Source of the DNA: Gilvimarinus polysaccharolyticus
Lineage (GTDB): Bacteria > Pseudomonadota > Gammaproteobacteria > Pseudomonadales > Cellvibrionaceae
NCBI RefSeq assembly: GCF_001187555.1
Contig: NZ_LFIJ01000001.1
Coordinates: 522,169-586,168 of the forward strand
Length of the DNA stretch: 64,000 nucleotides
Reading direction: 5' to 3'
In this document: one piece after another, positions 21,962 to 34,077 of the stretch
Position numbering within the stretch: position 1 is the first letter of the stretch
How the letters are laid out: the number at the start of each line of letters is the position of its first letter
Made by a program: the position numbers and the translations under genes
The notes under the pieces: generated by a model
The model's database searches: none
What the model was told of the DNA's origin: nothing
Seen by the model: only the letters and a program-made list of their open reading frames with translations

Positions 21962-22526
21962 ACGTCATCCTTGTTTATTGTTGTCTTTCAGACTAGAAGG
22001 TTTCTCTGGTGTCCGTATTCTCACGAAACTGATGTGAAAGTTCAAGTTATGGGTCTTCCGGTTCAATCCGTGAGGGTTAAGCGTATGTTAGATGGTCGAG
22101 TTAGACGTTAAGCCAGCCCTTGGTGTGTTGTGGCCAGAACACAAAGTCAACCCGGTCTCGCCCTAACTGGTCGGTATATGCGTGAACAAGTAGTAAGTGA
22201 ATATTTGTGGCTATGTTGTAACAGTGCCGGGCCATTACCTTTATTGGCTTTGGCTGTTTTTTTGGGTAAGGCGGAGCTAATGTATTTACTTAGTGCCGCC
22301 TAGGTCATGCTGCCACCTTTAAGCTTCGCGTTAATTGCATCAGGAAATGACGAAGCTGGTGTTTGTGATTTGTTTCCTTGATTTTTATTGTATTTTTTTT
22401 AGGCATTTTCAGGTAATAAGCTATCTCATAGCCCAGTAAATTGCGATAATGGTAAGTTAGCGCAAGCCAGTAATGCTTGATTTGATCTGTTGTCGGCCTA
22501 CAACCGGCACAACCAAGGAATCCGTG
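21962..22526. other. Long intergenic region before the two-partner secretion locus
   Basis: These 565 bases separate the divergent peptidase and exoprotein genes. I see no gene. A possible promoter for the exoprotein is TTGTGA (22363-22368), 17 bases, TATTGT (22386-22391); this is weak. An inverted repeat AGCTTCG (22322-22328) with CGAAGCT (22351-22357) lies just upstream of it and could be a regulator site. The exoprotein's ribosome-binding site is AAGGA, seven bases before the ATG at 22527. Confidence 0.4.
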
Positions 22527-25500
22527 ATGTCAGCTAAGCCAAAATCCACTCATCAATGTGTTTGTCCTCCCTATCGATCGCGTGCTTTGGCACTTACCAT
22601 CGCTCTTATCAGCGGCGCAGCTTATGCTGGGCCTAATGGCGGCGTGGTAATTGATGGCGATGCCAATATTGATATTCGCGGCAAGCTCACCGATATCCTA
22701 CAAAACACCCAAAACACCACCATCGTTTGGGACAACTTTGATATTAACATTGATGAAATCGTTAATTTCATTCAGCCCAACGACACCTCCATCGCCCTTA
22801 ACCGCGTGTTTAGCGCCGATGGTACGCAAATCAACGGCCAGCTTAACGCCAACGGCCGCGTGTTTGTCATGGACGCCAACGGCGTTTTGTTTGGGCAGAG
22901 TGCTAGCGTCAACGTCGGCTCATTGGTGGCCTCTACGTTGGATGTGTCGCATACCGACTACACCAACTTTACCTTTAGCGGCAACGGCGCTCCGGCCTCG
23001 GTATTAAACCTAGGCGCAATCACCGCCGCCGACACCGGTGCGGTAGCACTATTGGGTGGGCAGGTAAGCAACCGCGGTGTGATTCAGGCCAAGCTCGGCA
23101 ACGTAGCGCTCGCAGCGGGTAACCAAATCACTCTCGACTTTGCCGGCGACGGCTTGCTGAATGTACAGGTGGACGAAGCCGCGCTTAACGCCCTGGCCGA
23201 AAACCACGGCCTGATACAAACCCCCGGCGGCCAAGTATTAATGACCGCCCATGCCAGTGATGCGTTGCTGCAAACCGTGGTCAACAACACAGGTGTAATA
23301 GAAGCGCAAAGTCTGCAAGCGCAAGATGGCAAAATTATGTTGCTTGGTGGTTTCAACGGCGGCACGGTTAATGTCAGCGGCACGCTCGATGCCTCTGCCC
23401 CTAACAGCGGTAATGGCGGTTTTATAGAAACCTCTGGCGCGGTGGTGCAAGTAACCGCTAATGCCAACATCGATGCCTCCAGCGCCAACGGCAGCGCCGG
23501 CACCTGGTTGCTCGACCCAACAGATTTGGACATCAGCTACGACGAAATGGGCGCAGACGATGGCGTCAGCCACGTTCATACCCAAGCCCTGCAAAACTCA
23601 CTGGCCGGTAGCAATGTCATATTACAAACCGCCGATGCTGGCGCCGGTAATGGCGATATCACCATTGCTGACCCTATTATTTGGGCCAGCGCCAATACTT
23701 TAACGCTAGATGCTGATGGTGGCATTGTCTTTAATGATTATGTTCAGGCACCCAACGGCGGCCTAAATCTTACCGCATTGGCCGACATTACTAGCGGCGC
23801 TGAGGGCCACATTAATGTGGCGGCCTTCACCTTAGAATCCGGTAACTTTAGCCAAATCATGGCGACCCTGCCGACGTTTATGGCTGACGACTTCACTCTA
23901 AACGGCGGCACCTTTACCCGTGCCACAGGTGGTAATGGCACCGGGTCACCACTACAAATTACCGATATTTTTGGCCTGCAAGGATTGGCAACTACCCTAA
24001 ACCTTAGTGCAACCTTACAAAACGACATAGACGCTTCAGATACCGCGGGCTGGAACAGCGGGGCGGGTTTCGATCCTATTGGCAATTCCAGTATTCCCTA
24101 CAGTGCCACATTTGATGGTGCTGGCTTTGTCATCGACGGCCTAACCATTAACCGTCCAGCAGAGAATTTTGTTGCTCTATTTGGTCACACGAGCTCAACG
24201 GCCTCCATCAGCAGGCTGGGTGTTACTGAGGGTCAAATTACAGGTGATTACTATGTGGGCGGCTTGGTCGCTAGAAACCGTGGTGACGTTAGCCTAAGTT
24301 ACACAACCGGTACGGTGATTGGGGATACGGATGTTGGTGGATTAGTCGGTAATAACACCAATGGATCCGTGGATCAAAGCTACTCGACCAGCGCCGTTAC
24401 TGGTGATGAAAGCGTTGCTGGCTTGGTCGGCAACAATGCCATGGCTACCGTGACGCAAAGCTATGCCAGCGGCTTGGTGACAGGCGGCTTCATCGCTATT
24501 GGCGGTTTGGTGGGCTATAACTTCAACGGGACGGTTAATAATAGCTACTGGGACAGCTTTACCACCAATCAACCTGGTGTTGGGGTTCCAGGTGCGGGTA
24601 GTATCTTTAACGCCACGGCCGTTAACGGCGATTGGTCCGGAGCGACGGATGCTTACGACCAAGCCAGCTATGAAGTAGTCGGTCAAGAATTTGATTTTGC
24701 CAATACCTGGTTTATCGCCGAGGGCAGCTCGCGCCCGATGCTGCGTGCCTTTTTAGACGGCGGCAATATCTCTAACTTGTATCAGTTACAAGGCATGGCG
24801 GCTGATTTAACCGGCAGCTACATTTTACTTAACGATATCGATGCATCGGCCACCGCTTCAACCGACAACGCGGATGTTTGGGGCGGGCGCGGTTTTGCGC
24901 CGGTGGGTCATATAACTCCCGGTGGCGCTTTTACCGGCGAGCTAGACGGCCAAGGTTTTCAGATTGGAGGTTTGACCATTAATCGGCCTGCACTCACTGG
25001 CGTTGGTCTTTTTGGTGTTGCAACTGGCGCGACTTTTTCGGACCTGAGCTTGACCGGTATTAATATTGTTGGCGATGTATATGTCGGGGGGGTAGTGGGG
25101 CAAGATGGTCTATCTTCAATCTCCGATGTTGATGTTGCCGGTGATGTCGCGGGTGGGAGTGGTGTTGGAGGCCTGATTGGTGGGTCTAATACCTCCTCTA
25201 TAGTGGGGAGTTATTCTGACGTTAATGTGGCAGGTGTAGCGTCAAGCGGTGGATTAGTAGGCCTCGCTGATGGACTTACTGTAAATACTAGTTATGCAGT
25301 GGGCGAGGTTAGTGGGGAAACGTACTCTGGCGGTTTGGTAGGCGTATTGCGCGCGGCGGGCTCTATTACTGATTCATTTGCCACAGGGGCTGTAGAGGCA
25401 ACTACTAACTATGCGGGTGGCTTAGTTGGTCACCTAGAAAACGCTACAATAGTAACCTCTTGGGCCAGTGGCGAGGTTGCCACAGCTGGGGCTAGCAGTG

Positions 25501-28373
25501 GTGGCTTGGTGGCTCGGGACAATGGCGGCAATACTTATACTAATAACTACTGGGACTCTTTCACCACTGCGCAAGCCGATGCTACCGGTGCGGGTGGAGT
25601 GGTTGCCGGTATAACCGCGGTTACCGGTGATTGGTCGGTTGCAGAAACCGCCTACAGCGCTGGCAGCTACACAGGCTTTGATTTTGGCAACGCATGGTTT
25701 ATCGCCGAGGGCCACTCTCGCCCAATGCTGCGTGCTTTTTTAAGTGGCGGTGGCGAAATACATAATCTCTACGACTTGCAAGGCATGGCCGCTGATTTAG
25801 CAGGTAGCTACACCTTAATGACCGATATCGACGCCTCGGCCACTGCCTCTACCGATAACGCCGATGTTTGGGGTGGGTTGGGCTTTGCTCCGGTAGGCAA
25901 TTCGGTTGAATTTAGCGGTGATTTTGACGGCAATAACCACGTTATTAGCAATCTAACCATCAACCGTCCCGAGGCCGGTTATGTTGGTCTGTTTGGACGC
26001 ACCAATGGCGCTATTATCTCCGATGTTGGGCTCACCCAAGTGAATATTGTTGGCACTAACACCGTTGGGGCGTTAGTGGGCATGAGCCTTAATGGTTCTA
26101 TCTCGGAGGTGTTTAGTTCTGGGCAGGTAACTGGTGAGAATACTGTTGGCGGCTTGGCTGGCTTGAATGATTCGTCCGTTTCTAATAGTTATTCTGTGGC
26201 CCAAGTGAATGGAGATGATAATGTTGGCGGGTTAGTAGGTACAAATAACTTTATTGGTAGTATCTCGCAAAGCTATGCGACAGGTGTGGTCACTGGCACT
26301 AGTTCAGTCGGTGGGTTAGTCGGTCATAACGAAAATAGTGTTGTTAACAGTTTTTGGAACGTCGATACCACTGGCGTCGGCATAGGGTCCGGCCCGACAG
26401 CGGGGGCCGCCGGCCTCACTACTACCGAATTTACTAACCTAGCAAACTTCACCAGCTGGGGCGCAGACATAGACGCCGAAGGCGGTACAGGTTCTGTATG
26501 GCGTATTTACGAAGGCCAATCTACTCCGTTATTGCGCTCATTCCTAACCGAAATCGATGTGATCGCCTATGACGATTACAAAGTCTACGACGGCGTCGCC
26601 TACGATGGCCTGCACGACATTAACGCCACCACCGGCGCGGGCGTGCGCTACGGCAACAGCTACGCCGAGTTTGTGGCAGCCTTTGGCGAAAATGGCACAC
26701 CGTACGGATCGGACGACATTAACAGCGCCGATTTAGAATACACCGGCGACTCGCAAGGCGCGATTGACGCCGGCACCTACGATATTACCCCCAGCGAGTT
26801 GTGGTCCAACCAAAGCGGTTACGACATTGTGATGAACGACGGTGTGCTCACCATCGATCAAGCCGTGGTCAGCGTTACCGTGAAGATCAACAACGCCAGT
26901 AAAGAGTACGGCGAAGCCGACCCCACCTTTAGCTGGGGAGTCACCTCGGGCTCTCTGGGTGCCGGCGACCGCTTAACCGGTCGTTTATCGCGCGCACCCG
27001 GTGAAAACGTGGGCAACTACGCCATTACCGGCAACGTCACCGGCGATTTAGCCAGCGGCAACTACGACGTCACCCTGATTAACGGCGTGTTTACCATTAC
27101 CCCGCGCGCCATTACCGTCAACATTGCCGACCTAGACAAAATCTATGGCGACGACGACCCAAGCTTTAGCTGGAGCATTACCGGTGGCAGCTTGGCTGCT
27201 GGCGAAACCTTAAACGGCACCTTAACCCGCGTACCCGGCGAGAACGTTGGCGACTACGTGATTACCGGTGCGTTAGAGGGCGACTTGGCCAGCAGCAACT
27301 ACACCGTCACCGTTGATGATGGCGTGTTGAGCATTGCCCCACGGCCACTGGTGATCAGCGCTGACGACTTTGCCAAAATCTATGGCCAAGACGACCCAGA
27401 GCTTACCTGGAGCCAAGGCGGCAGCGTGGTCGAGGGCGACACCCTAACCGTGAGCCTAAGCCGCAGCGAAGGCCAAAACGTGGGTTACTACACCATCACC
27501 CCAGAAGTAACCGGTGATGTCCTCAGCGACAACTACGCGCTTAGTATTAACAACGGCGCGCTGCAAATCACTCCCGCCGCACTGATGGTGACCGCCAACG
27601 ACATCGAGACCTACTGGAACCTGCTGCCACCGTTTAGCGCCACCTTAGACGGCCTAACCAACGGCGACACCGAGCAAGACGTGTTTGGTAACTCGCTGAC
27701 CGTGACATCCGACTTAAGCTTGCCGATACCGGGTGCATACACCTTAACGCCGATGGCAACACTGGCCAGCAGCAACTACACCGTTAGCTTTAACGACGGC
27801 GTGTTAAACCTGCTCAGCTCTAACCCCGGCGGTGGCTACGGCGATGGCTTAACCAGTACCCAACTGCCTGCACGGGAAGCACTGGGTCGCCAAGATCGCG
27901 CCAACCTCTTTGAAGGCCGCGATTTGCTGACCGGTGAGCTGGACGACATATCGCTTGGCGTATACCAAGACGGCGTGCGTGTGCCGGCGGCGGTTCTGGC
28001 CGAGTTTGGTCTACCTATGCCGCGCGCGGTGTTGTTTGCCAACAACAGCGATACCGTCGAGCCCGAATACGTAGAGATGCTGGAAAAATTTGTGGCTAAG
28101 CTCGCGCAATATCCCGAGTTTAACCTCTTAGTAGAAGGCCACACCTCGCACACCGGTCCGCGCTTGCTCAACGAAAAGCTCGCCCGTAAACGCGCTATGG
28201 CGGTGTACAACATACTGGTCGAGTTGGGTGTAGAGCCTGCGCGACTGGGTACCAAAGGCTTTAGCTGGACGCGCCCGATTGCCGACAACAGCACCCTAGA
28301 GGGGCAAGCGTTAAACCGTCGTACCGAGATCACGCCGGATAAGCCCAGCGCCGATCAAGACGCCAGCGAGTAA
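22527..28373 (+). CDS. Two-partner secretion exoprotein (TpsA) with GLUG repeats, YDG/MBG domains and a C-terminal OmpA-like domain
   Basis: A 1948-residue secreted or surface adhesin. From the N-terminus: an extended signal peptide (cleavage after AAYA, about residue 36); the haemagglutination-activity TPS domain (about 37-170; NANGRVFVMDANGVLFG), which is recognised by the TpsB pore; a beta-helical region with three long repeats of GLUG motifs (GGLVGxN; about 480-1320); a YDG-type domain (about 1345-1440); several MBG domains (about 1445-1760; KEYGEADPTFSW, KIYGDDDPSFSW, KIYGQDDPELTW); and an OmpA/Pal-like domain (about 1830-1935; EGHTSHTGP, LARKRAM, NRRTEI). The ATG at 22527 has a good ribosome-binding site; an open frame from 22473 has none. 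tpsB follows after 98 bases. The OmpA domain is very unusual for TpsA. Ser1874 replaces the aspartate that contacts peptidoglycan in OmpA, while Arg1889 is kept. Confidence 0.88.
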   Translation: MSAKPKSTHQCVCPPYRSRALALTIALISGAAYAGPNGGVVIDGDANIDIRGKLTDILQNTQNTTIVWDNFDINIDEIVNFIQPNDTSIALNRVFSADGTQINGQLNANGRVFVMDANGVLFGQSASVNVGSLVASTLDVSHTDYTNFTFSGNGAPASVLNLGAITAADTGAVALLGGQVSNRGVIQAKLGNVALAAGNQITLDFAGDGLLNVQVDEAALNALAENHGLIQTPGGQVLMTAHASDALLQTVVNNTGVIEAQSLQAQDGKIMLLGGFNGGTVNVSGTLDASAPNSGNGGFIETSGAVVQVTANANIDASSANGSAGTWLLDPTDLDISYDEMGADDGVSHVHTQALQNSLAGSNVILQTADAGAGNGDITIADPIIWASANTLTLDADGGIVFNDYVQAPNGGLNLTALADITSGAEGHINVAAFTLESGNFSQIMATLPTFMADDFTLNGGTFTRATGGNGTGSPLQITDIFGLQGLATTLNLSATLQNDIDASDTAGWNSGAGFDPIGNSSIPYSATFDGAGFVIDGLTINRPAENFVALFGHTSSTASISRLGVTEGQITGDYYVGGLVARNRGDVSLSYTTGTVIGDTDVGGLVGNNTNGSVDQSYSTSAVTGDESVAGLVGNNAMATVTQSYASGLVTGGFIAIGGLVGYNFNGTVNNSYWDSFTTNQPGVGVPGAGSIFNATAVNGDWSGATDAYDQASYEVVGQEFDFANTWFIAEGSSRPMLRAFLDGGNISNLYQLQGMAADLTGSYILLNDIDASATASTDNADVWGGRGFAPVGHITPGGAFTGELDGQGFQIGGLTINRPALTGVGLFGVATGATFSDLSLTGINIVGDVYVGGVVGQDGLSSISDVDVAGDVAGGSGVGGLIGGSNTSSIVGSYSDVNVAGVASSGGLVGLADGLTVNTSYAVGEVSGETYSGGLVGVLRAAGSITDSFATGAVEATTNYAGGLVGHLENATIVTSWASGEVATAGASSGGLVARDNGGNTYTNNYWDSFTTAQADATGAGGVVAGITAVTGDWSVAETAYSAGSYTGFDFGNAWFIAEGHSRPMLRAFLSGGGEIHNLYDLQGMAADLAGSYTLMTDIDASATASTDNADVWGGLGFAPVGNSVEFSGDFDGNNHVISNLTINRPEAGYVGLFGRTNGAIISDVGLTQVNIVGTNTVGALVGMSLNGSISEVFSSGQVTGENTVGGLAGLNDSSVSNSYSVAQVNGDDNVGGLVGTNNFIGSISQSYATGVVTGTSSVGGLVGHNENSVVNSFWNVDTTGVGIGSGPTAGAAGLTTTEFTNLANFTSWGADIDAEGGTGSVWRIYEGQSTPLLRSFLTEIDVIAYDDYKVYDGVAYDGLHDINATTGAGVRYGNSYAEFVAAFGENGTPYGSDDINSADLEYTGDSQGAIDAGTYDITPSELWSNQSGYDIVMNDGVLTIDQAVVSVTVKINNASKEYGEADPTFSWGVTSGSLGAGDRLTGRLSRAPGENVGNYAITGNVTGDLASGNYDVTLINGVFTITPRAITVNIADLDKIYGDDDPSFSWSITGGSLAAGETLNGTLTRVPGENVGDYVITGALEGDLASSNYTVTVDDGVLSIAPRPLVISADDFAKIYGQDDPELTWSQGGSVVEGDTLTVSLSRSEGQNVGYYTITPEVTGDVLSDNYALSINNGALQITPAALMVTANDIETYWNLLPPFSATLDGLTNGDTEQDVFGNSLTVTSDLSLPIPGAYTLTPMATLASSNYTVSFNDGVLNLLSSNPGGGYGDGLTSTQLPAREALGRQDRANLFEGRDLLTGELDDISLGVYQDGVRVPAAVLAEFGLPMPRAVLFANNSDTVEPEYVEMLEKFVAKLAQYPEFNLLVEGHTSHTGPRLLNEKLARKRAMAVYNILVELGVEPARLGTKGFSWTRPIADNSTLEGQALNRRTEITPDKPSADQDASE
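24693..25985. repeat. Two adjacent copies of a ~990-bp repeat inside the TpsA gene
   Basis: The block beginning GATTTTGCCAATACCTGG at 24693 recurs at 25680 (GATTTTGGCAACGCATGG) and stays collinear for about 300 bases, encoding FIAEG-S/H-SRPMLRAFL and then LQGMAADL with DIDASATASTDNADVWGG. A third, more divergent copy of the module starts near 23970. The well-matched edges flank faster-changing GLUG stretches. Confidence 0.8.
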
Positions 28374-28471
28374 CACCACAACCGACAAGCGGCGCCGCGC
28401 CATAAACCGTAGGGCGCCGCTTAACCCCGTATTTAACCGCGTATAAAACGCGATGGAGAGGAACGCGTAAC

Positions 28472-30133
28472 ATGAAGTTACCCCTTATATTGAAGCTAAC
28501 GCCGCTGGCCGTGTTAATCCCCCACCTGGTGTTTGCCCAAGCCGTACCCAATGCCGGTACCTTTATTCGGCAGCTAGAAAACGAGCCCGGCGTACAGGCC
28601 GAGCCCAACAACGCCGATATCAGCCTGCCGCAACAACAAGCCCAACCCGCGCCCGCCGAAGGCGGCCCCAGCGTCTTGGTCAATGCCTTTGAAGTGACCG
28701 GCGCCGAGATCTTTACCGCCGATGAGCTCACCGCATTAGTGGCCGACCTTGCCGGTAAAACCCTCACCTTGGGTGAACTGCAAGAAGCCAGCAACCGCAT
28801 TACCCGCTACTACCGCGAGCGCGGCTTCTTTTTAACGCGCGCCTACTTGCCGCAACAAGATGTAAACGACGGCGTTGTCACCATCGACGTGCTTGAAGGT
28901 CGGTTGGGTAAAGTCGCCTTAAACAACGACGCCCATACCCGCGACTTCGTGCTCAAGCGTCCGTTCCGCGCATTAAACGCCAACCAAATGCTCAGCGCCT
29001 CCGACCTAGAAACCCCGCTGCTGCGCTTGTCGGACTTGCCTGGCATAGATGTCACCACCACCCTCGTACCCGGTGAAGAAGTTGGCACCAGTGACCTGCA
29101 AGTGGATGTTAGCCAAGGCCCATGGGTCAACGGCACCGTCGAGCTCGACAATTACGGCAACGAATCCACCGGTGAATACCGCCTAGGCGCCAGCGTGCAA
29201 GTCAACAGCCCATTAGGCTTAGGCGACCGCTTTGATCTGAGAGCCCTTGGCTCCGATGAAGAACAAGTGTTCTTCCGCGCCCAATACCAACTGCCCGTTG
29301 GCCCTTGGGCCACCGAGCTGGGTGTGGCTTACTCCGACATGGACTACACCTTGGGCGGCAACTTTGACGAGCTAGACGCCACCGGTAATGCGCGCATTAC
29401 CACCGCGTTTGTAAAACAATCGTTAATCCGTACCCGCAGCGCCAACCTAAACGTGCAGCTGCAGTACGACAGCAAAGAGCTCGAAGACAAAATTGGTGCC
29501 TTTGCCAGCCACAGCGACAAAGACTCTGAGCTGTACACCCTAAGCATCAATGGCGATTGGCGCGACCAGTGGTTGGGTGGTGGTATCACCCAAGCCTCGC
29601 TGGCCTATACCAAAGGCGAGCTAAACATCAACAGCTACCTCGACCAAGTCATCGACACCGTGACCGCACAAACCGCGGGTGACTTTGAGCGCTGGACCCC
29701 CTCGCTGATGCGTTTGCAAAACCTCGGCGGTAACTGGAGCCTACACGCGCAAATCCACGGCCAGTTTGCCGATAAAAACCTCGACTCGTCCGAGAAATTT
29801 AGCCTAGGCGGCGCCTACGGTGTACGCGCTTACGCCCAAGGCGAAGCCAGCGGCGATGAAGGCTACCTGGCCAACGTCGAAGTGCGCTACGACCTAAACA
29901 GCCAGTGGCAAGCGTTTGCACTGCTCGATCACGGTCAAGTCGACATCAACAAAAGCCCGTGGGACGCCAGCGTCGACAACAGCCGCAGCTTAACGGGAGC
30001 GGGTATTGGGGCGCGTTACAACAACCGCGCGTGGAGCGCCAGCGCCACAGCCGCCGCACCTATCGGCAGTGAAGATATCCACGGCGATGACGACGATGTG
30101 CGTTTGTTTGCGCGGGTAGCGTGGAAGTTTTAA
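28472..30133 (+). CDS. Two-partner secretion outer-membrane transporter (TpsB, ShlB/FhaC family)
   Basis: A 553-residue outer-membrane pore dedicated to the exoprotein encoded just upstream. Signal peptide MKLPLILKLTPLAVLIPHLV, cleaved after AQA near residue 25; a short plug-like N-terminal region; two POTRA domains (about 70-215; VNAFEVTGAEIFTADEL and the conserved YRERGFFLTRAYLPQQ); then the 16-stranded barrel (about 220-553) ending in the aromatic residue of RVAWKF, the outer-membrane assembly signal. The loop-6 motif is visible as SLGGAYGVRAYAQGEASGDEGY (variant of the VRGY motif) near 445-466. A good ribosome-binding site, AGAGGAA, precedes the ATG. It lies 98 bases after tpsA and is probably transcribed with it. 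Confidence 0.93.
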   Translation: MKLPLILKLTPLAVLIPHLVFAQAVPNAGTFIRQLENEPGVQAEPNNADISLPQQQAQPAPAEGGPSVLVNAFEVTGAEIFTADELTALVADLAGKTLTLGELQEASNRITRYYRERGFFLTRAYLPQQDVNDGVVTIDVLEGRLGKVALNNDAHTRDFVLKRPFRALNANQMLSASDLETPLLRLSDLPGIDVTTTLVPGEEVGTSDLQVDVSQGPWVNGTVELDNYGNESTGEYRLGASVQVNSPLGLGDRFDLRALGSDEEQVFFRAQYQLPVGPWATELGVAYSDMDYTLGGNFDELDATGNARITTAFVKQSLIRTRSANLNVQLQYDSKELEDKIGAFASHSDKDSELYTLSINGDWRDQWLGGGITQASLAYTKGELNINSYLDQVIDTVTAQTAGDFERWTPSLMRLQNLGGNWSLHAQIHGQFADKNLDSSEKFSLGGAYGVRAYAQGEASGDEGYLANVEVRYDLNSQWQAFALLDHGQVDINKSPWDASVDNSRSLTGAGIGARYNNRAWSASATAAAPIGSEDIHGDDDDVRLFARVAWKF

Positions 30134-30150
30134 GTTGAGCTAAAGTGATA

Positions 30151-30188
30151 CAGTTAAGGCGGGCGAAGTATTTCGTCAGTCTTAACTG
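30151..30188. terminator. Possible hairpin terminator after tpsB
   Basis: CAGTTAAG (30151-30158) pairs with CTTAACTG (30181-30188) and encloses a second stem, CGAA-GTAT-TTCG. It starts 18 bases after the tpsB stop. There is no long T-run, so its strength is uncertain. Confidence 0.35.
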
Positions 30189-30368
30189 ATTAATTGTTAA
30201 AAGCAGATGCGGTGATAAAAACTGTTCATAGCTTTAAGTATTGTAGCAACATGATTTTTGAGCGATAAGCTTTGTTTGATGAGGTTCGTTTAATCAGTGT
30301 ATGACGGTCAATCTCGCCGTGCTTACCTGAGAACTATTCCGCCCCTTTAAAGCCAGCTGTGCTACCGC

Positions 30369-31796
30369 TCAACCCTCGATTAAATTGATCTCGGCACAAA
30401 ATTCTATAGCGAGCTTTTGTCCTTTTCTTAATGTATCTATTAGAGTTTTTGGAGTCTTGTCTGGGGCTGTACGGAACTCATTCATGGCGGTGCCCAGCTG
30501 CCCCAGAATACCTAAATCTCTATTAAGCAGTATTGGTTGCAGGCCTGCGGCTTCCAGCTCTCTGTTAAGTAGGATAAGTGCAACGCGGCCATTACCGTCT
30601 GAAAATGGATGTATATCCCCGATTGCCATAAGTATCAGGATTGCTCGAGGCAAGCCTGTTTTTACTTGAGGGTAGATTTGTGCAAAGAATACTTGCAGAG
30701 TATTTACCACTTGAATCGGTAACGGTCGCACAAAAGATTTACTGGCGGCTGTTTGATTTTGAAAAAATTTAAATTGTCCCGGATGGAACCTCGTAAGGTT
30801 CTTGGTGGCAAGAGCATGCAGCTCTCTTATTCCGGTTTCGGCTTGGAGTGCAGAGTCTAGGCTAAATGTTTGTGATCTCGCATGATCAATGCTTGAGATC
30901 ATATTTGAAGTCTCGGTATAGCGATGATCGTCTGTCGTATTGTTGAGAACCTCATCTCTTAGGCGCACATAGTCTGCTGCCGAGTCGACTAAAGGAATCA
31001 TAAAAAACGCTTCGTACTCTGCCCAACGACTAGTCAGGGGGATAATCGGTGTTAGTGTGTGCTCGCTAGATTCCAGCACTTGAGCGTATGATTTTAAGCG
31101 ATCTAATGCTTTTAGGTCGATGCCCTGTAGCTCGGGTGAGCTGCTTGATGTGGTAGCTGCCAGAGTGTTGCTGTTTGGCTTTTGAAGAAACTCGCTAATG
31201 CCGGTTTGATAGCGAAGGTATTCACTGGCTAGTATTTTGAGCGATGAGATTTCTTCTAGCTCCTCAGGGTTGGCTGAATCGCTGGAGATTTTAGTTAAAA
31301 TATTTAATGCTTCTTCGGGTTTCTTCAGGCTTAACTTTGTTTTAGTTAATAAAAGGTGTGCGGCGGTGAGCTTGGGGTCAATGGCAATTGATTTTTTCAG
31401 TAAGGTTTCAGCCTCTTGATTCTTGGTTAACAAAATTAGGCTTCTTGCCATTCGGTATAAGCTGCCTGCATTGACGTCTAGTTGCAGTGCTTTTTGGAAG
31501 TAGCCAACAGATTCTTGATGGCGACCACTTTCTAGCAAGGCATCCCCCCATATTTGATAGGCTTGGGGGAGTCTTGCATTAATCGTTAGTGCGTGTTTTG
31601 AATACTCGATAGCTTGTGCATGCCATTGCATTTGATTGGCAGACTCGGCCAAGTTTATCCAGCCTTCAATTCTTAACGGTTTTACTTGGGTGGCATTTTT
31701 AAAGTAATTGTAGGCTGTCTTTATTCGTTTTTGTTGAAAGGCGACTAACCCTTTGTGCATCGTTTTTAACCAGTTTTGCTCTGCGTGAGTTGACAT
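30369..31796 (-). CDS. TPR-Fic protein (Fic-family nucleotidyl/phospho-transferase)
   Basis: A cytoplasmic protein of about 475 residues. The N-terminal half (about 8-200) is a run of tetratricopeptide repeats (for example AYQIWGDALLESGRHQESVGYFQKAL), a scaffold for binding a partner protein. The C-terminal half is a Fic domain with the active-site motif HPFSDGNGR (His at about 396), the base for transferring a nucleotide monophosphate or phospho-group to a target hydroxyl. The usual last arginine of the motif (GNGRxxR) is a leucine. No clear inhibitory [S/T]xxxE[G/N] helix was found. A GTG at 31808 would add four residues and overlap the upstream gene; the ATG at 31796 is preferred. It is last of a three-gene operon with the RuBisCO-like and IspD-like genes. 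The target is unknown. Confidence 0.85.
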   Translation of the reverse strand: MSTHAEQNWLKTMHKGLVAFQQKRIKTAYNYFKNATQVKPLRIEGWINLAESANQMQWHAQAIEYSKHALTINARLPQAYQIWGDALLESGRHQESVGYFQKALQLDVNAGSLYRMARSLILLTKNQEAETLLKKSIAIDPKLTAAHLLLTKTKLSLKKPEEALNILTKISSDSANPEELEEISSLKILASEYLRYQTGISEFLQKPNSNTLAATTSSSSPELQGIDLKALDRLKSYAQVLESSEHTLTPIIPLTSRWAEYEAFFMIPLVDSAADYVRLRDEVLNNTTDDHRYTETSNMISSIDHARSQTFSLDSALQAETGIRELHALATKNLTRFHPGQFKFFQNQTAASKSFVRPLPIQVVNTLQVFFAQIYPQVKTGLPRAILILMAIGDIHPFSDGNGRVALILLNRELEAAGLQPILLNRDLGILGQLGTAMNEFRTAPDKTPKTLIDTLRKGQKLAIEFCAEINLIEG

Positions 31797-31800
31797 AATA

Positions 31801-33057
31801 TTATTCACTTTGAGCCGATGTGCGAAAGCAGCGTGCTGCGTACTCTAATCCTTTTGGATGCTCATCAAGCCAAGTGGCGGCTATGATCATAAAATCAGAT
31901 GAGCCCATATCATCTTTATATTGAGCTAGCTCGGATGGGATTTTTCCACCTTGGATAATAGGGAGGGTTGGTTTGCAGGTGCCTAGCGAATTTTTACAGG
32001 CATCAATAAAGTTTTTATTCTGTTGTTGGTCTTGAAAGCGAGTGGCAATTGGGCCTGGGGCAACGGTTAAGTCCGCTCCGGCGAGTCTATGCAGTGTCGC
32101 CATTGCACTGTCTGTTGCTCCCCATTGCGAAGATCGAGTAATAACATCGCCGCAAGTATTGTGAGCAAGAATCATCATGTCAGAGCGACGCCGAACCTCA
32201 GAGATAAATGAGATTCCTTGAGCGTATGAGCTCACCAGAACACCGTCAACGCCAGCGGCTTGGGCTTGTTCCAGCATGGGGAGGGCTGCCTCTAGGTCAT
32301 CAATAATATTGGCAAAGTACAATTTCTTTTCGCCCGTGGCGTCTTCTACTCGTTTTTTCATTGCGACCATGCGTTGTACCCGGTCTGCAAACGGTGAGGC
32401 TGCACTATTGTATGTAAGCTCGTCATCTTTAATAACGTCAAAGCCACCGGTAAGCACTTGCTCGTTCATTTTTAGCATGCTGTCAGTGCTGAGGCCATTA
32501 GCGGGACGCATAGAACGGCAAAATATTGGGCGGTCGGAGAATTCTAGCTTTGATTGAATGCCGTCGATTCCATAGCGTGGCCCAGAGAGTTTTTGGGTTA
32601 TCGTCGAGGGGAATTTTAAGTCGGTAAGGATGGCACTGCTGAGAAATCCGAGGCGATGAACTTCCCCTAAAACATTGTTCCAAATTCGTGTGAGACGAGC
32701 GTTAAATACGTGTACTGGGTAAGCGATAATAATGCGATAAGCTTTACTGTTGCCTTCTGCTTGTGTGTTGCCGTAGACGCTGGTATTAAGAAAGTAAAGT
32801 GAAGCGATCTTGCTCATATTTATGGGGGCAGGCTCAACAGAGACTACTTTAGCGCAAAACGTTGTAATGTCTTTTGCAATATCGAAGCTGGCAAGAGAGG
32901 TGGCACAGACACTTTGCTCTTTCGCTATACCATAAGCGGCTTGCTCGCCGTCTAAAGGAGTCGCTATGACATAAGTGGCAAAAAGATAATCATCGACATT
33001 ACCGTTGCTCCAAGTAAATAGGTGGTTGTCTGCTGTATTTAAGTTCTCAGAGCTCAT
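31801..33057 (-). CDS. RuBisCO-like protein (type IV large-subunit homologue)
   Basis: A 418-residue homologue of the RuBisCO large subunit. The N-terminal alpha/beta domain starts at DDYLFATYVIATPLDGEQAA (about 22-41) and the barrel at GPRYGIDGIQSKL (about 159-171). The metal-site motif GGFDVIKDDE is complete: Lys210, the position carbamylated in RuBisCO, with Asp212 and Glu213. Carboxylase residues are not all kept: RPANG (Arg184) replaces the KPK lysine, and the loop-6 lysine is absent (VAPGPIATR). So it is a type IV protein, probably an enolase, isomerase or decarboxylase acting on a sugar-like phosphate rather than a CO2-fixing enzyme. The frame is open from 33108, but the ATG at 33057 overlaps the upstream stop by ATGA and is preferred. 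The TPR-Fic gene follows at once. Confidence 0.9.
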   Translation of the reverse strand: MSSENLNTADNHLFTWSNGNVDDYLFATYVIATPLDGEQAAYGIAKEQSVCATSLASFDIAKDITTFCAKVVSVEPAPINMSKIASLYFLNTSVYGNTQAEGNSKAYRIIIAYPVHVFNARLTRIWNNVLGEVHRLGFLSSAILTDLKFPSTITQKLSGPRYGIDGIQSKLEFSDRPIFCRSMRPANGLSTDSMLKMNEQVLTGGFDVIKDDELTYNSAASPFADRVQRMVAMKKRVEDATGEKKLYFANIIDDLEAALPMLEQAQAAGVDGVLVSSYAQGISFISEVRRRSDMMILAHNTCGDVITRSSQWGATDSAMATLHRLAGADLTVAPGPIATRFQDQQQNKNFIDACKNSLGTCKPTLPIIQGGKIPSELAQYKDDMGSSDFMIIAATWLDEHPKGLEYAARCFRTSAQSE

Positions 33058-33725
33058 GCGGGTAGATATCCTAATTTTGGTGCGATGACTTTTTCGGCGA
33101 TATCCCAATCCAATGGCGAGGTGATTTTGATGTTTTCAGCCTCCCCTCGAACGGCATAAAGTGATTGCCCGGCACTCATTACTAATTGAGCGGTCGATTG
33201 AAAGCTTTCGGCTTTAGGTTGTTGCAACGCTTGTGCTAGTACTGAGTAGCTAAATGCCTGAGGGGCTTGAAATATTCCCACTTCGGAATGATGCCAAAAA
33301 TGTGTCACGTGGTTATTGTTAATTTTTCCAATAGGTACAACCGGATCGACAAAGGCACCCGCGGCTTTGTGCTTTTCAGCGGCGGTTAAAACCTCTTCGC
33401 AAAGGGCTTGAGAGGCAAAGGGTCGAGCGGCATCTTGCAGCAGTATGGTTTGTGCATTACACGAATCAAACAGTTTGTTAATGGTGTGGTGGCGAGAGTT
33501 TCCGCCAGTGATGATCAAGCAATTAGGTAATAGGCCGGCGGCGATAGCTTGGTAACCTTCAGGCACGGCAATCACAACAATATCGACAATCGGTTCTAGG
33601 GTATGAGCAACCCATTCAATCAAGGTTCGATCGGCTAGTTTTAAAAAACCTTTTGGCCCTTTATTTAAGCGCGTGCCAAAACCGGCAGCAGGAATTATTG
33701 CTGCACGAGATACAGGTATGGCCAT
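33054..33725 (-). CDS. IspD/TarI-like cytidylyltransferase
   Basis: A 223-residue nucleotidyltransferase of the IspD family. It has the CTP-binding signature AAIIPAAGFGTRLNKGPKGFL (about 8-28), the LLQDAARPF motif (about 94-102) and the late KITSPLDWDIAE region (about 200-211), where IspD has the Lys-x-Thr-x-x-Asp motif. IspD makes CDP-methylerythritol; TarI-type relatives make CDP-ribitol. Housekeeping ispD normally neighbours ispF and ftsB, so this copy beside a RuBisCO-like and a TPR-Fic gene is probably a specialised paralogue making a CDP-activated polyol or other alcohol phosphate. The ribosome-binding site AAGGAT lies six bases before the ATG. Its stop overlaps the RuBisCO-like start by four bases. 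Whether a second ispD exists elsewhere cannot be seen here. Confidence 0.82.
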   Translation of the reverse strand: MAIPVSRAAIIPAAGFGTRLNKGPKGFLKLADRTLIEWVAHTLEPIVDIVVIAVPEGYQAIAAGLLPNCLIITGGNSRHHTINKLFDSCNAQTILLQDAARPFASQALCEEVLTAAEKHKAAGAFVDPVVPIGKINNNHVTHFWHHSEVGIFQAPQAFSYSVLAQALQQPKAESFQSTAQLVMSAGQSLYAVRGEAENIKITSPLDWDIAEKVIAPKLGYLPA

Positions 33726-34077
33726 ATAGGATCCTTAAGGTATAGAGGTTTTGACGCTTAAATCCGCACAATGGCGAGAGTAGTGCATCTGACCTTTGGG
33801 GGCAAGTTGTTCTCTTTGCTTAATTTGGACACTCTATTTTCATCATCAGAGGCTTTGATTGGAAATATAATGGATGGCCAGGCTGGTCATTTTTGAGGTT
33901 TAGGTAAGAGTGCTTATAACTCTCGCCGCCGGTTTATGGCTCAGCCTGCAAAATGAGCTGTCGTAGCTAATGAGCAGGCTGTTAGGGCAGAGAGTTTCGA
34001 TGTGGCCATCCTTACCGTTAAGCTCATTGAGTTATAGCGGGGCATCGGCACTGAGAGCAGTGGCCAATATACTGCTC
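33726..34077. other. Intergenic region between gntK and the IspD-like operon
   Basis: These 352 bases contain no gene that I can support. They hold the promoter of the three-gene operon on the right-to-left strand and the 3' end of gntK. Apart from the hairpin at 34050-34082, no structure was recognised. Confidence 0.45.

Follow-up and report, generated by a model that had tools for sequence, protein, structure and literature searches.

A Gilvimarinus operon of an IspD-like cytidylyltransferase and a TPR-Fic protein as a candidate CDP-alcohol tagging system

Three genes on the minus strand of a 64,000-nucleotide stretch of the Gilvimarinus polysaccharolyticus genome (contig NZ_LFIJ01000001.1; the whole stretch is called the window) were analyzed. 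According to the list of open reading frames (ORFs), they encode, in this order, an IspD-like cytidylyltransferase (33725-33054), a RuBisCO-like protein (33057-31801) and a protein joining tetratricopeptide repeats (TPR) to a Fic domain (31796-30369), called TPR-Fic. We propose, at slightly better than even odds (roughly 0.55), that a cytidine diphosphate (CDP)-alcohol cytidylyltransferase feeds a Fic phospho-alcohol transferase, and that the genes thus make up a CDP-alcohol tagging system that supplies its own donor. In this reading, the IspD-like enzyme would couple CTP with an alcohol phosphate, X-P, to yield CDP-X. The class II-like TPR-Fic protein, whose ATP gamma-phosphate site and auto-inhibition appear to have decayed, would take CDP-X as donor and move phospho-X onto an acceptor hydroxyl, the acceptor most likely being a protein that the TPR half binds. 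The RuBisCO-like enzyme, at loci that have it, would alter the phosphorylated precursor X-P. Two independent lines of evidence strengthen the idea of a CDP-using Fic enzyme, i.e., the separate clade and exchanged partners of the IspD-like protein, and the residue losses in TPR-Fic. The features are as follows:

33054..33725, minus strand: IspD-like cytidylyltransferase, first gene (PF01128, 116.5 bits; own clade; type-specific columns)
33054..33057, minus strand: ATGA overlap of the IspD-like stop and the RuBisCO-like start (sequence)
31801..33057, minus strand: RuBisCO-like protein, middle gene, optional, at three of five loci (PF00016, 84.7 bits; invariants, motif table)
30369..31796, minus strand: TPR-Fic protein, third gene (PF02661, 37.6 bits, and TPR families; structure models)
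30984..31001, minus strand: degenerate inhibitory helix MIPLVD of TPR-Fic, residues 266-271 (alignments)
30585..30611, minus strand: Fic signature HPFSDGNGR of TPR-Fic, residues 396-404, first motif arginine (R1) kept (motif reading, alignment)
30576..30578, minus strand: Leu407 of TPR-Fic in place of the second motif arginine, R2 (motif reading, alignment)

The original prediction, made from the sequence of the window, had described three genes on one strand, the ATGA overlap and a TPR-Fic start four bases after the RuBisCO-like stop, and both the sequence and the Pfam matches bore this out. The matches to PF01128 (IspD, 33054-33725), to PF00016 (RuBisCO_large, 31801-33057) and to PF02661 (Fic) together with TPR families (30369-31808) were all above the curated cut-offs, and the RuBisCO N-terminal model PF02788 was marginally under its own (20.3 versus 20.7 bits). 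The TPR-Fic ATG at 31796 lies four bases downstream of the RuBisCO-like TAA, with a GTG at 31808 as alternative start. The RuBisCO-like start was set to the ATG at 33057, which agrees with two relatives; the ORF caller had used a TTG at 33108. Internal stops were absent, and codon position 3 was the most variable in all pairs compared. Promoter-like and terminator-like sites were no more frequent than in shuffled sequences. The arrangement is more than chance, because the order of the trio recurs in the Gilvimarinus genomes G005 and G007 and the outer pair is directly joined in G001 and G006.

The IspD-like protein and its partners

The window's genome encodes a further, ordinary IspD, which reached 240.8 bits in the genome search versus 116.1 bits for the IspD-like protein. 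Its gene adjoins genes that read as ispF and truD by inspection, so that a second ispD beside ispF, which had been named as a check, was indeed found. There is also a third, weak IspD match (36.3 bits), located in or next to genes recognized by inspection as atpD and glmU. Sequence identity between the IspD-like protein and the ordinary IspD of the same genome is 25%, and the IspD-like protein scored 123.2 bits with the NCBIfam model TIGR00453, below the cut-off of 181.3 bits. One ordinary-scoring IspD is also encoded in each of the seven other Gilvimarinus genomes.

A profile built from the five IspD-like proteins of the genus was searched against 398 genomes from the phylum, 49 of which matched at E 1e-20. 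Clear matches outside the genus were obtained in G719, G625 and G638 (E 3e-47 to 7e-56), and the next short-gene matches were those of G633 (E 4e-28) and G569 (E 1e-25). The neighbourhoods were examined in G638, G625, G719 and G569, each of which also has a second, ordinary-scoring IspD, and as short flanks in G633, G650 and G762. In G638 and G625 the neighbouring gene encodes a TPR protein that matches LicD (22.6 and 32.5 bits, cut-off 22.6), and in G569 it encodes one that contains a Glyphos_transf domain (64.8 bits). Both families, LicD and Glyphos_transf, consist of CDP-alcohol phosphotransferases. At three of the five loci outside the genus, a TPR-fused CDP-alcohol phosphotransferase occupies the slot that TPR-Fic holds in Gilvimarinus. 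This exchange of partners and the distinct clade of the IspD-like proteins favour a CDP-dependent Fic enzyme.

The clade emerged from a quick tree calculated with 60 rows, after three duplicate rows had been dropped. Eight core IspD-like proteins together with those of G569 and G633 were split from 50 rows of the IspD, IspDF and TarI types with a support of 98 in the Shimodaira-Hasegawa-like approximate likelihood ratio test (SH-aLRT), and the core eight were separate from G569 and G633 with a support of 84. The five Fic-linked proteins (96) adjoin the LicD-linked protein of G638 (95). The phylogeny proposed with the original prediction therefore placed the IspD-like protein neither with true IspD nor with TarI, the latter represented by one row, and a reductase neighbour was likewise not found.

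Alignment columns were numbered after the trimmed ordinary IspD of the window's genome. The IspD-like protein of the window keeps the glycine-rich loop and its own R19, K25 and K200, and seven near-invariant IspD columns are altered. In comparison with 47 ordinary rows, R11, K18, K205 and the glycine loop, which we take to be the nucleotide-side, CTP-binding elements, are kept in all eight IspD-like proteins. In contrast, Q19, Y20, H100, D133, T134, T181 and D182 are found in 40-47 of the 47 ordinary rows and in none of the eight. T134 and T181 presumably touch 2-C-methyl-D-erythritol 4-phosphate (MEP), and we infer that the remaining five columns (Q19, Y20, H100, D133, D182) are also on the MEP side. 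Three TarI-grouping rows retain Q19, T134, H100 and D182 throughout, D133 in two cases, T181 in one and Y20 in none. The loss of the IspD-typical columns suggests that the substrate alcohol is probably neither MEP nor ribitol phosphate. D101 and R104 are conserved in all three proteins with a RuBisCO-like neighbour, in the two LicD-linked proteins and in G719, and are replaced by N and S in both Fic pairs without a RuBisCO-like gene; the alcohol may thus differ between loci with and without the RuBisCO-like enzyme.

The exchanged partners, TPR-LicD and TPR-Glyphos_transf, also bear on an alternative with the same chemistry, in which TPR-Fic would put phospho-X not on a protein but on a glycan, lipid-linked or polymer acceptor, in the manner of capsule transition transferases. 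Glycans are used by the TPR-LicD-like Cps7C and by TPR-TagF-like capsule polymerases, and their TPR part is needed for linker elongation, according to the available part of the source (PMC11666461). However, the Fic enzymes with reported activity modify target proteins, as far as the partly available sources go, and no capsule gene is present among the named flanking genes of the operon, the rest of the genome not having been searched for capsule genes. We consider such an acceptor unlikely. In G638, the gene next to the TPR-LicD/IspD-like pair (L111, 8622-15740), open at the contig end, encodes a giant protein that has DUF4347 and Calx-beta domains and could be an acceptor.

Further matches were of other kinds. 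In G762 (L095, 829-3652), which groups with TarI, an IspD-SDR fusion overlaps a LicD gene and likely represents a CDP-ribitol-type pair, and the match in G650 adjoins epimerase-like and flippase-like genes by inspection. When the eight IspD-like proteins were compared with 215 genomes of the class, five matches besides the window were obtained at E 1e-25, and the best of them, G290, which was the one examined, is an ordinary-looking IspD. A tblastn search of plasmids and phages with the IspD-like proteins gave at most 32.3% identity among the matches listed (30 of 45, 20 of 37 and 13 of 13 records), and those listed that carry an annotation are named ispD or ribitol-5-phosphate cytidylyltransferase. 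Among 69 viral-contig loci there was none with an IspD-like and a Fic match together.

Residue losses in the TPR-Fic protein

TPR-Fic has a predicted Fic fold (predicted local distance difference test, pLDDT, 94; predicted template modelling score, pTM, 0.92) in addition to the Pfam Fic match. FICD chains were nearest in the Foldseek search, and rank 6 was taken by 7cb8, a Fic entry from Mycobacterium marinum whose title names a CDP complex. In the signature HxFx(D/E)GNGR1xxR2, the histidine, the asparagine and R1 are kept in all five TPR-Fic proteins. One known Fic enzyme contacts CDP-choline through an arginine that is retained here. R2, by which Fic AMPylases are recognized, is retained in none of the five and is replaced by L, Q, I, M and M. 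The inhibitory helix has also changed: class II relatives mostly read E[AS]YF-SN[YF]IEG, whereas the TPR-Fic proteins read E[AS][FL]F-MIPxxx. The aligned inhibitory serine has become methionine and the glutamate V, V, T, I and I, so that the class II pattern [S/T]xxxE[G/N] is found in the aligned place in none of the five.

Among the 17 other Fic loci found in the class sample, R2 was intact in all 17 and the inhibitory motif in 16; sixteen of these loci were parsed by pattern and the last (L070) was read by eye. R2 was also kept in 63 of 63 Fic rows from viral contigs with a parsed motif, a number that includes duplicates, leaves unparsed rows uncounted and comes from a search pattern that stops before R2. 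The 26 Fic relatives of one alignment had been chosen for R2 and the inhibitory motif, and hence they are not a control. In AMPylating Fic enzymes, R2 forms a salt bridge with the gamma-phosphate of ATP and the inhibitory glutamate competes for R2 (PMC3667792, as far as available). The joint loss of R2 and its inhibitory partner fits a donor that has no gamma-phosphate.

TPR-Fic shares the fold and the location of the inhibitory helix with the class II AMPylases FICD and SoFic, and it could itself be an ATP-using AMPylase, a toxin or a defence protein, with the IspD-like and RuBisCO-like genes as unrelated neighbours. Adenylylation is the commonest activity among Fic enzymes (PMC5033356, available part), weak PADLOC matches to SoFic, PDC-S04 and PDC-S24 were obtained, and the inhibitory acid may be shifted by one place. 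However, R2 and the aligned inhibitory serine and glutamate, by which TPR-Fic differs from FICD and SoFic, are gone in all five proteins, and an IspD-like gene accompanies TPR-Fic in all five carriers, the two genes sharing 4 bases in G001 and in G006. An antitoxin gene is not evident around the operon in the window, because the gap after TPR-Fic holds no ORF of at least 30 amino acids and the region before the operon only ORFs of 30-60 amino acids. An AMPylase or toxin therefore appears improbable. A transferase of bare phosphate (a Doc-like kinase) or a catalytically dead binding protein would agree with the loss of R2 and with an asparagine at the metal-ligand position in G001. Doc, too, is not known to carry the second arginine. 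The retention of the motif histidine, asparagine and R1 in five of five proteins speaks against both variants, which would also leave a dedicated cytidylyltransferase unexplained, and we regard them as decidedly improbable.

Distribution, insertion site and the RuBisCO-like gene

The TPR-Fic and IspD-like genes occur in an identical set of five of the eight Gilvimarinus genomes; the remaining three have neither. All module frames are open in the carriers. A RuBisCO-like gene was found in three of the eight genomes, i.e., in the window, G005 and G007, where the three-gene order is conserved. The IspD-like gene of G001 and of G006 directly overlaps the TPR-Fic gene by 4 bases, and the genome search gave no RuBisCO-like match at E 0.001. 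Because these two genomes carry the pair alone, the core of the module is the IspD-like and TPR-Fic pair, and the RuBisCO-like gene is an optional addition. The expected linkage of the three families thus held for the outer pair, and for the RuBisCO-like gene in just three of the five carriers. The original prediction had also proposed that the operon makes a CDP-activated molecule from a substrate shaped by the RuBisCO-like enzyme, to be attached by the Fic domain to a protein chosen by the TPR half. This prediction is supported in part, and its protein acceptor is a possibility. The lost gamma-phosphate arginine and the CDP-alcohol phosphotransferase partners at three of five non-genus loci support the CDP donor and its use by Fic; the RuBisCO-like enzyme as a necessary shaper of the substrate is not supported in that form, in view of the two pairs without it.

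The amino-acid identities to the window were 69-70% for the IspD-like, 71-73% for the RuBisCO-like and 46-51% for the TPR-Fic proteins of G005 and G007, and 44-46% for the IspD-like and 25-28% for the TPR-Fic proteins of G001 and G006. The TPR-Fic transferase is therefore the fastest-drifting gene of the module.

In the four other carriers the module is flanked on one side by a gpgS-like gene, which was named by inspection and has no Pfam match. On the opposite side lies a cluster of GH13-like, gntK, LacI and GH94-like genes, in some cases with an intervening LuxR gene or TpsA piece; the contig of G006 ends short of this cluster. The same site was seen without the module in G003 and G004. The window (site 30134-34077) has the gntK flank as in the other carriers, with TpsA/TpsB in place of the gpgS-like gene, which flanks the site in the seven other Gilvimarinus genomes and was not detected in the window's genome.

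The adjoining genes on the plus strand of the window (22473-30133) encode a TpsA exoprotein with TPS, GLUG, MBG_2 and C-terminal OmpA domains and a TpsB transporter. G002, G006 and G007 likewise have TpsA genes or fragments at this site, together with LuxR-type genes. The TPS exoprotein was considered as a target of the module and rejected, the association being too loose: it lies beside the module in the window and in G006, a remnant is present in G007, G001 has a LuxR gene only, G005 has nothing, and G002 has the exoprotein without the module.

The RuBisCO-like protein has, besides its RuBisCO_large domain, the KDDE motif (K210-E213 in the window). The active-site lysine of RuBisCO, for which we assume the number K175, is replaced by arginine in all three Gilvimarinus proteins (R184 in the window), and all 37 rows (30 distinct) from other loci have a lysine at this position. 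As judged by this replacement, the protein is predicted not to be a carboxylase. The best solved chains by profile, 2qyg (labelled RuBisCO-like protein 2) and 1tel/1ykw, likewise keep KDDE and differ from the Gilvimarinus proteins at the K175 position. No IspD-like or TPR-Fic match was present near eight RuBisCO-like relatives or in the shorter flanks of 29 loci (seven of them the same genes). A scan of genome contigs with the RuBisCO-like alignment gave two loci of the same genus (G. gilvus and G. chinensis) and, as it relied on N-terminal patterns, carries little information on the wider spread; a scan of viral contigs with the same alignment gave no relative.

A role of the IspD-like and RuBisCO-like genes in isoprenoid synthesis or in the methylthioadenosine (MTA)-isoprenoid shunt would have a precedent in Rhodospirillum rubrum, in which a RuBisCO-like isomerase of 5-methylthioribulose 1-phosphate (MTRu-1P) feeds 1-deoxy-D-xylulose 5-phosphate (DXP), according to the available part of the source (PMC10663253). 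However, the genome has an ordinary ispD-ispF pair, the IspD-typical columns are altered and the pair occurs without the RuBisCO-like gene. In addition, mtnA had no match in five of five genomes (the control search was positive in 9 of 14 known genomes), which disfavours methionine salvage. This already disfavoured alternative is most improbable. Within the proposed tagging system, the role of the RuBisCO-like enzyme is the weakest link.

Two other RuBisCO-like genes stand in other surroundings. One, on a Thiodictyon plasmid (L016, 7002-9323), overlaps a YjbQ gene, after idi and within a photosynthesis cluster. The other, in G204 (L047, 441-2860), is the top-scoring relative of the class sample outside the genus and lies after a gene that by inspection encodes glyceraldehyde-3-phosphate dehydrogenase.

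Known systems, opposing evidence and meaning

In humans, FKTN and FKRP, which have LicD domains, receive CDP-ribitol made by ISPD; the donor of LicD/fukutin proteins is CDP-ribitol or CDP-choline, and fusions of ISPD with LicD are known from bacteria (PMC4873967, as far as available). These systems resemble the proposed Gilvimarinus pair in combining an IspD-family cytidylyltransferase with a CDP-alcohol phosphotransferase, and the IspD-like relatives of G638 and G625 lie beside TPR-LicD. In contrast, the Gilvimarinus transferase is a Fic protein without a LicD domain in Pfam, and its IspD-like partner belongs to a clade apart from TarI. In the capsule-synthesis enzymes Cps7C, Cps7D and Cps3D, a TPR region is likewise fused to a transferase, which is LicD/FKRP-like or TagF-like and uses CDP-glycerol according to the available part of the source (PMC11666461); Gilvimarinus has a Fic domain instead and lacks a capsule gene among the named neighbours. 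The TarI-TarJ pair also couples an IspD-family enzyme to a precursor-making enzyme, which is a ribulose-5-phosphate reductase there and an optional RuBisCO-like protein here, and the single TarI row lies outside the IspD-like clade. Among Fic enzymes, AnkX is a phosphocholine transferase (PMC5033356, available part). AnkX and TPR-Fic share the fold, R1 and, as proposed for TPR-Fic, a CDP-linked donor. AnkX carries ankyrin repeats, TPR-Fic carries TPR instead, and its donor would come from a gene of the same operon.

Several observations weigh against a CDP-alcohol tagging system. All five TPR-Fic genes come from one genus, and no IspD-like gene was found within flanks of up to 1.5 kb of the 17 other Fic loci (369 class genomes). 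Of the 227 positions in the LicD profile, just 33 are spanned by the match in G638, which scores exactly at the cut-off, and 35 by that in G625; the neighbour in G633 is a sulfatase-family protein (PF00884), and the neighbours in G719 are two ORFs without a Pfam match, so that a recognisable transferase is absent. G569 and G633 form long branches in the tree. In the Fic domain, four of five TPR-Fic proteins have an acidic residue (D, E, E, E) one place past the lost glutamate, which may be a shifted inhibitory acid, and the protein of G001 has N at the metal-ligand position, for which the motif gives D or E. The best solved match by profile, 7cb8, is titled as a CDP complex and keeps R2; the loss of R2 is therefore unnecessary for holding CDP, and all that the entry demonstrates is that CDP fits into a Fic pocket. 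Finally, the site comparison among the Gilvimarinus genomes links the module only loosely to the surface exoprotein.

In the open-access literature searched, which leaves most subscription papers outside, no such operon is described. At somewhat short of even odds, we suggest that in a system dedicated to protein modification a Fic enzyme attaches a phospho-alcohol, possibly one never described on proteins, via a CDP donor made by its operon partner, that Fic, LicD and TagF-type transferases are interchangeable on TPR modules beside one IspD-like family, and that a RuBisCO-like enzyme was recruited to change the alcohol.

If the proposed tagging system is real, the donor of a Fic enzyme could be read from its operon, and donor and chemistry would be directly testable in a marine bacterium. 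Fic chemistry would be extended beyond the known transfers of AMP, UMP, phosphate and phosphocholine. Fic proteins would be joined to the world of CDP-ribitol and fukutin, and a new role would be suggested for a RuBisCO-like protein. The joint loss of R2 and of the inhibitory serine and glutamate could serve as a signature in searches for other Fic enzymes that do not use ATP.

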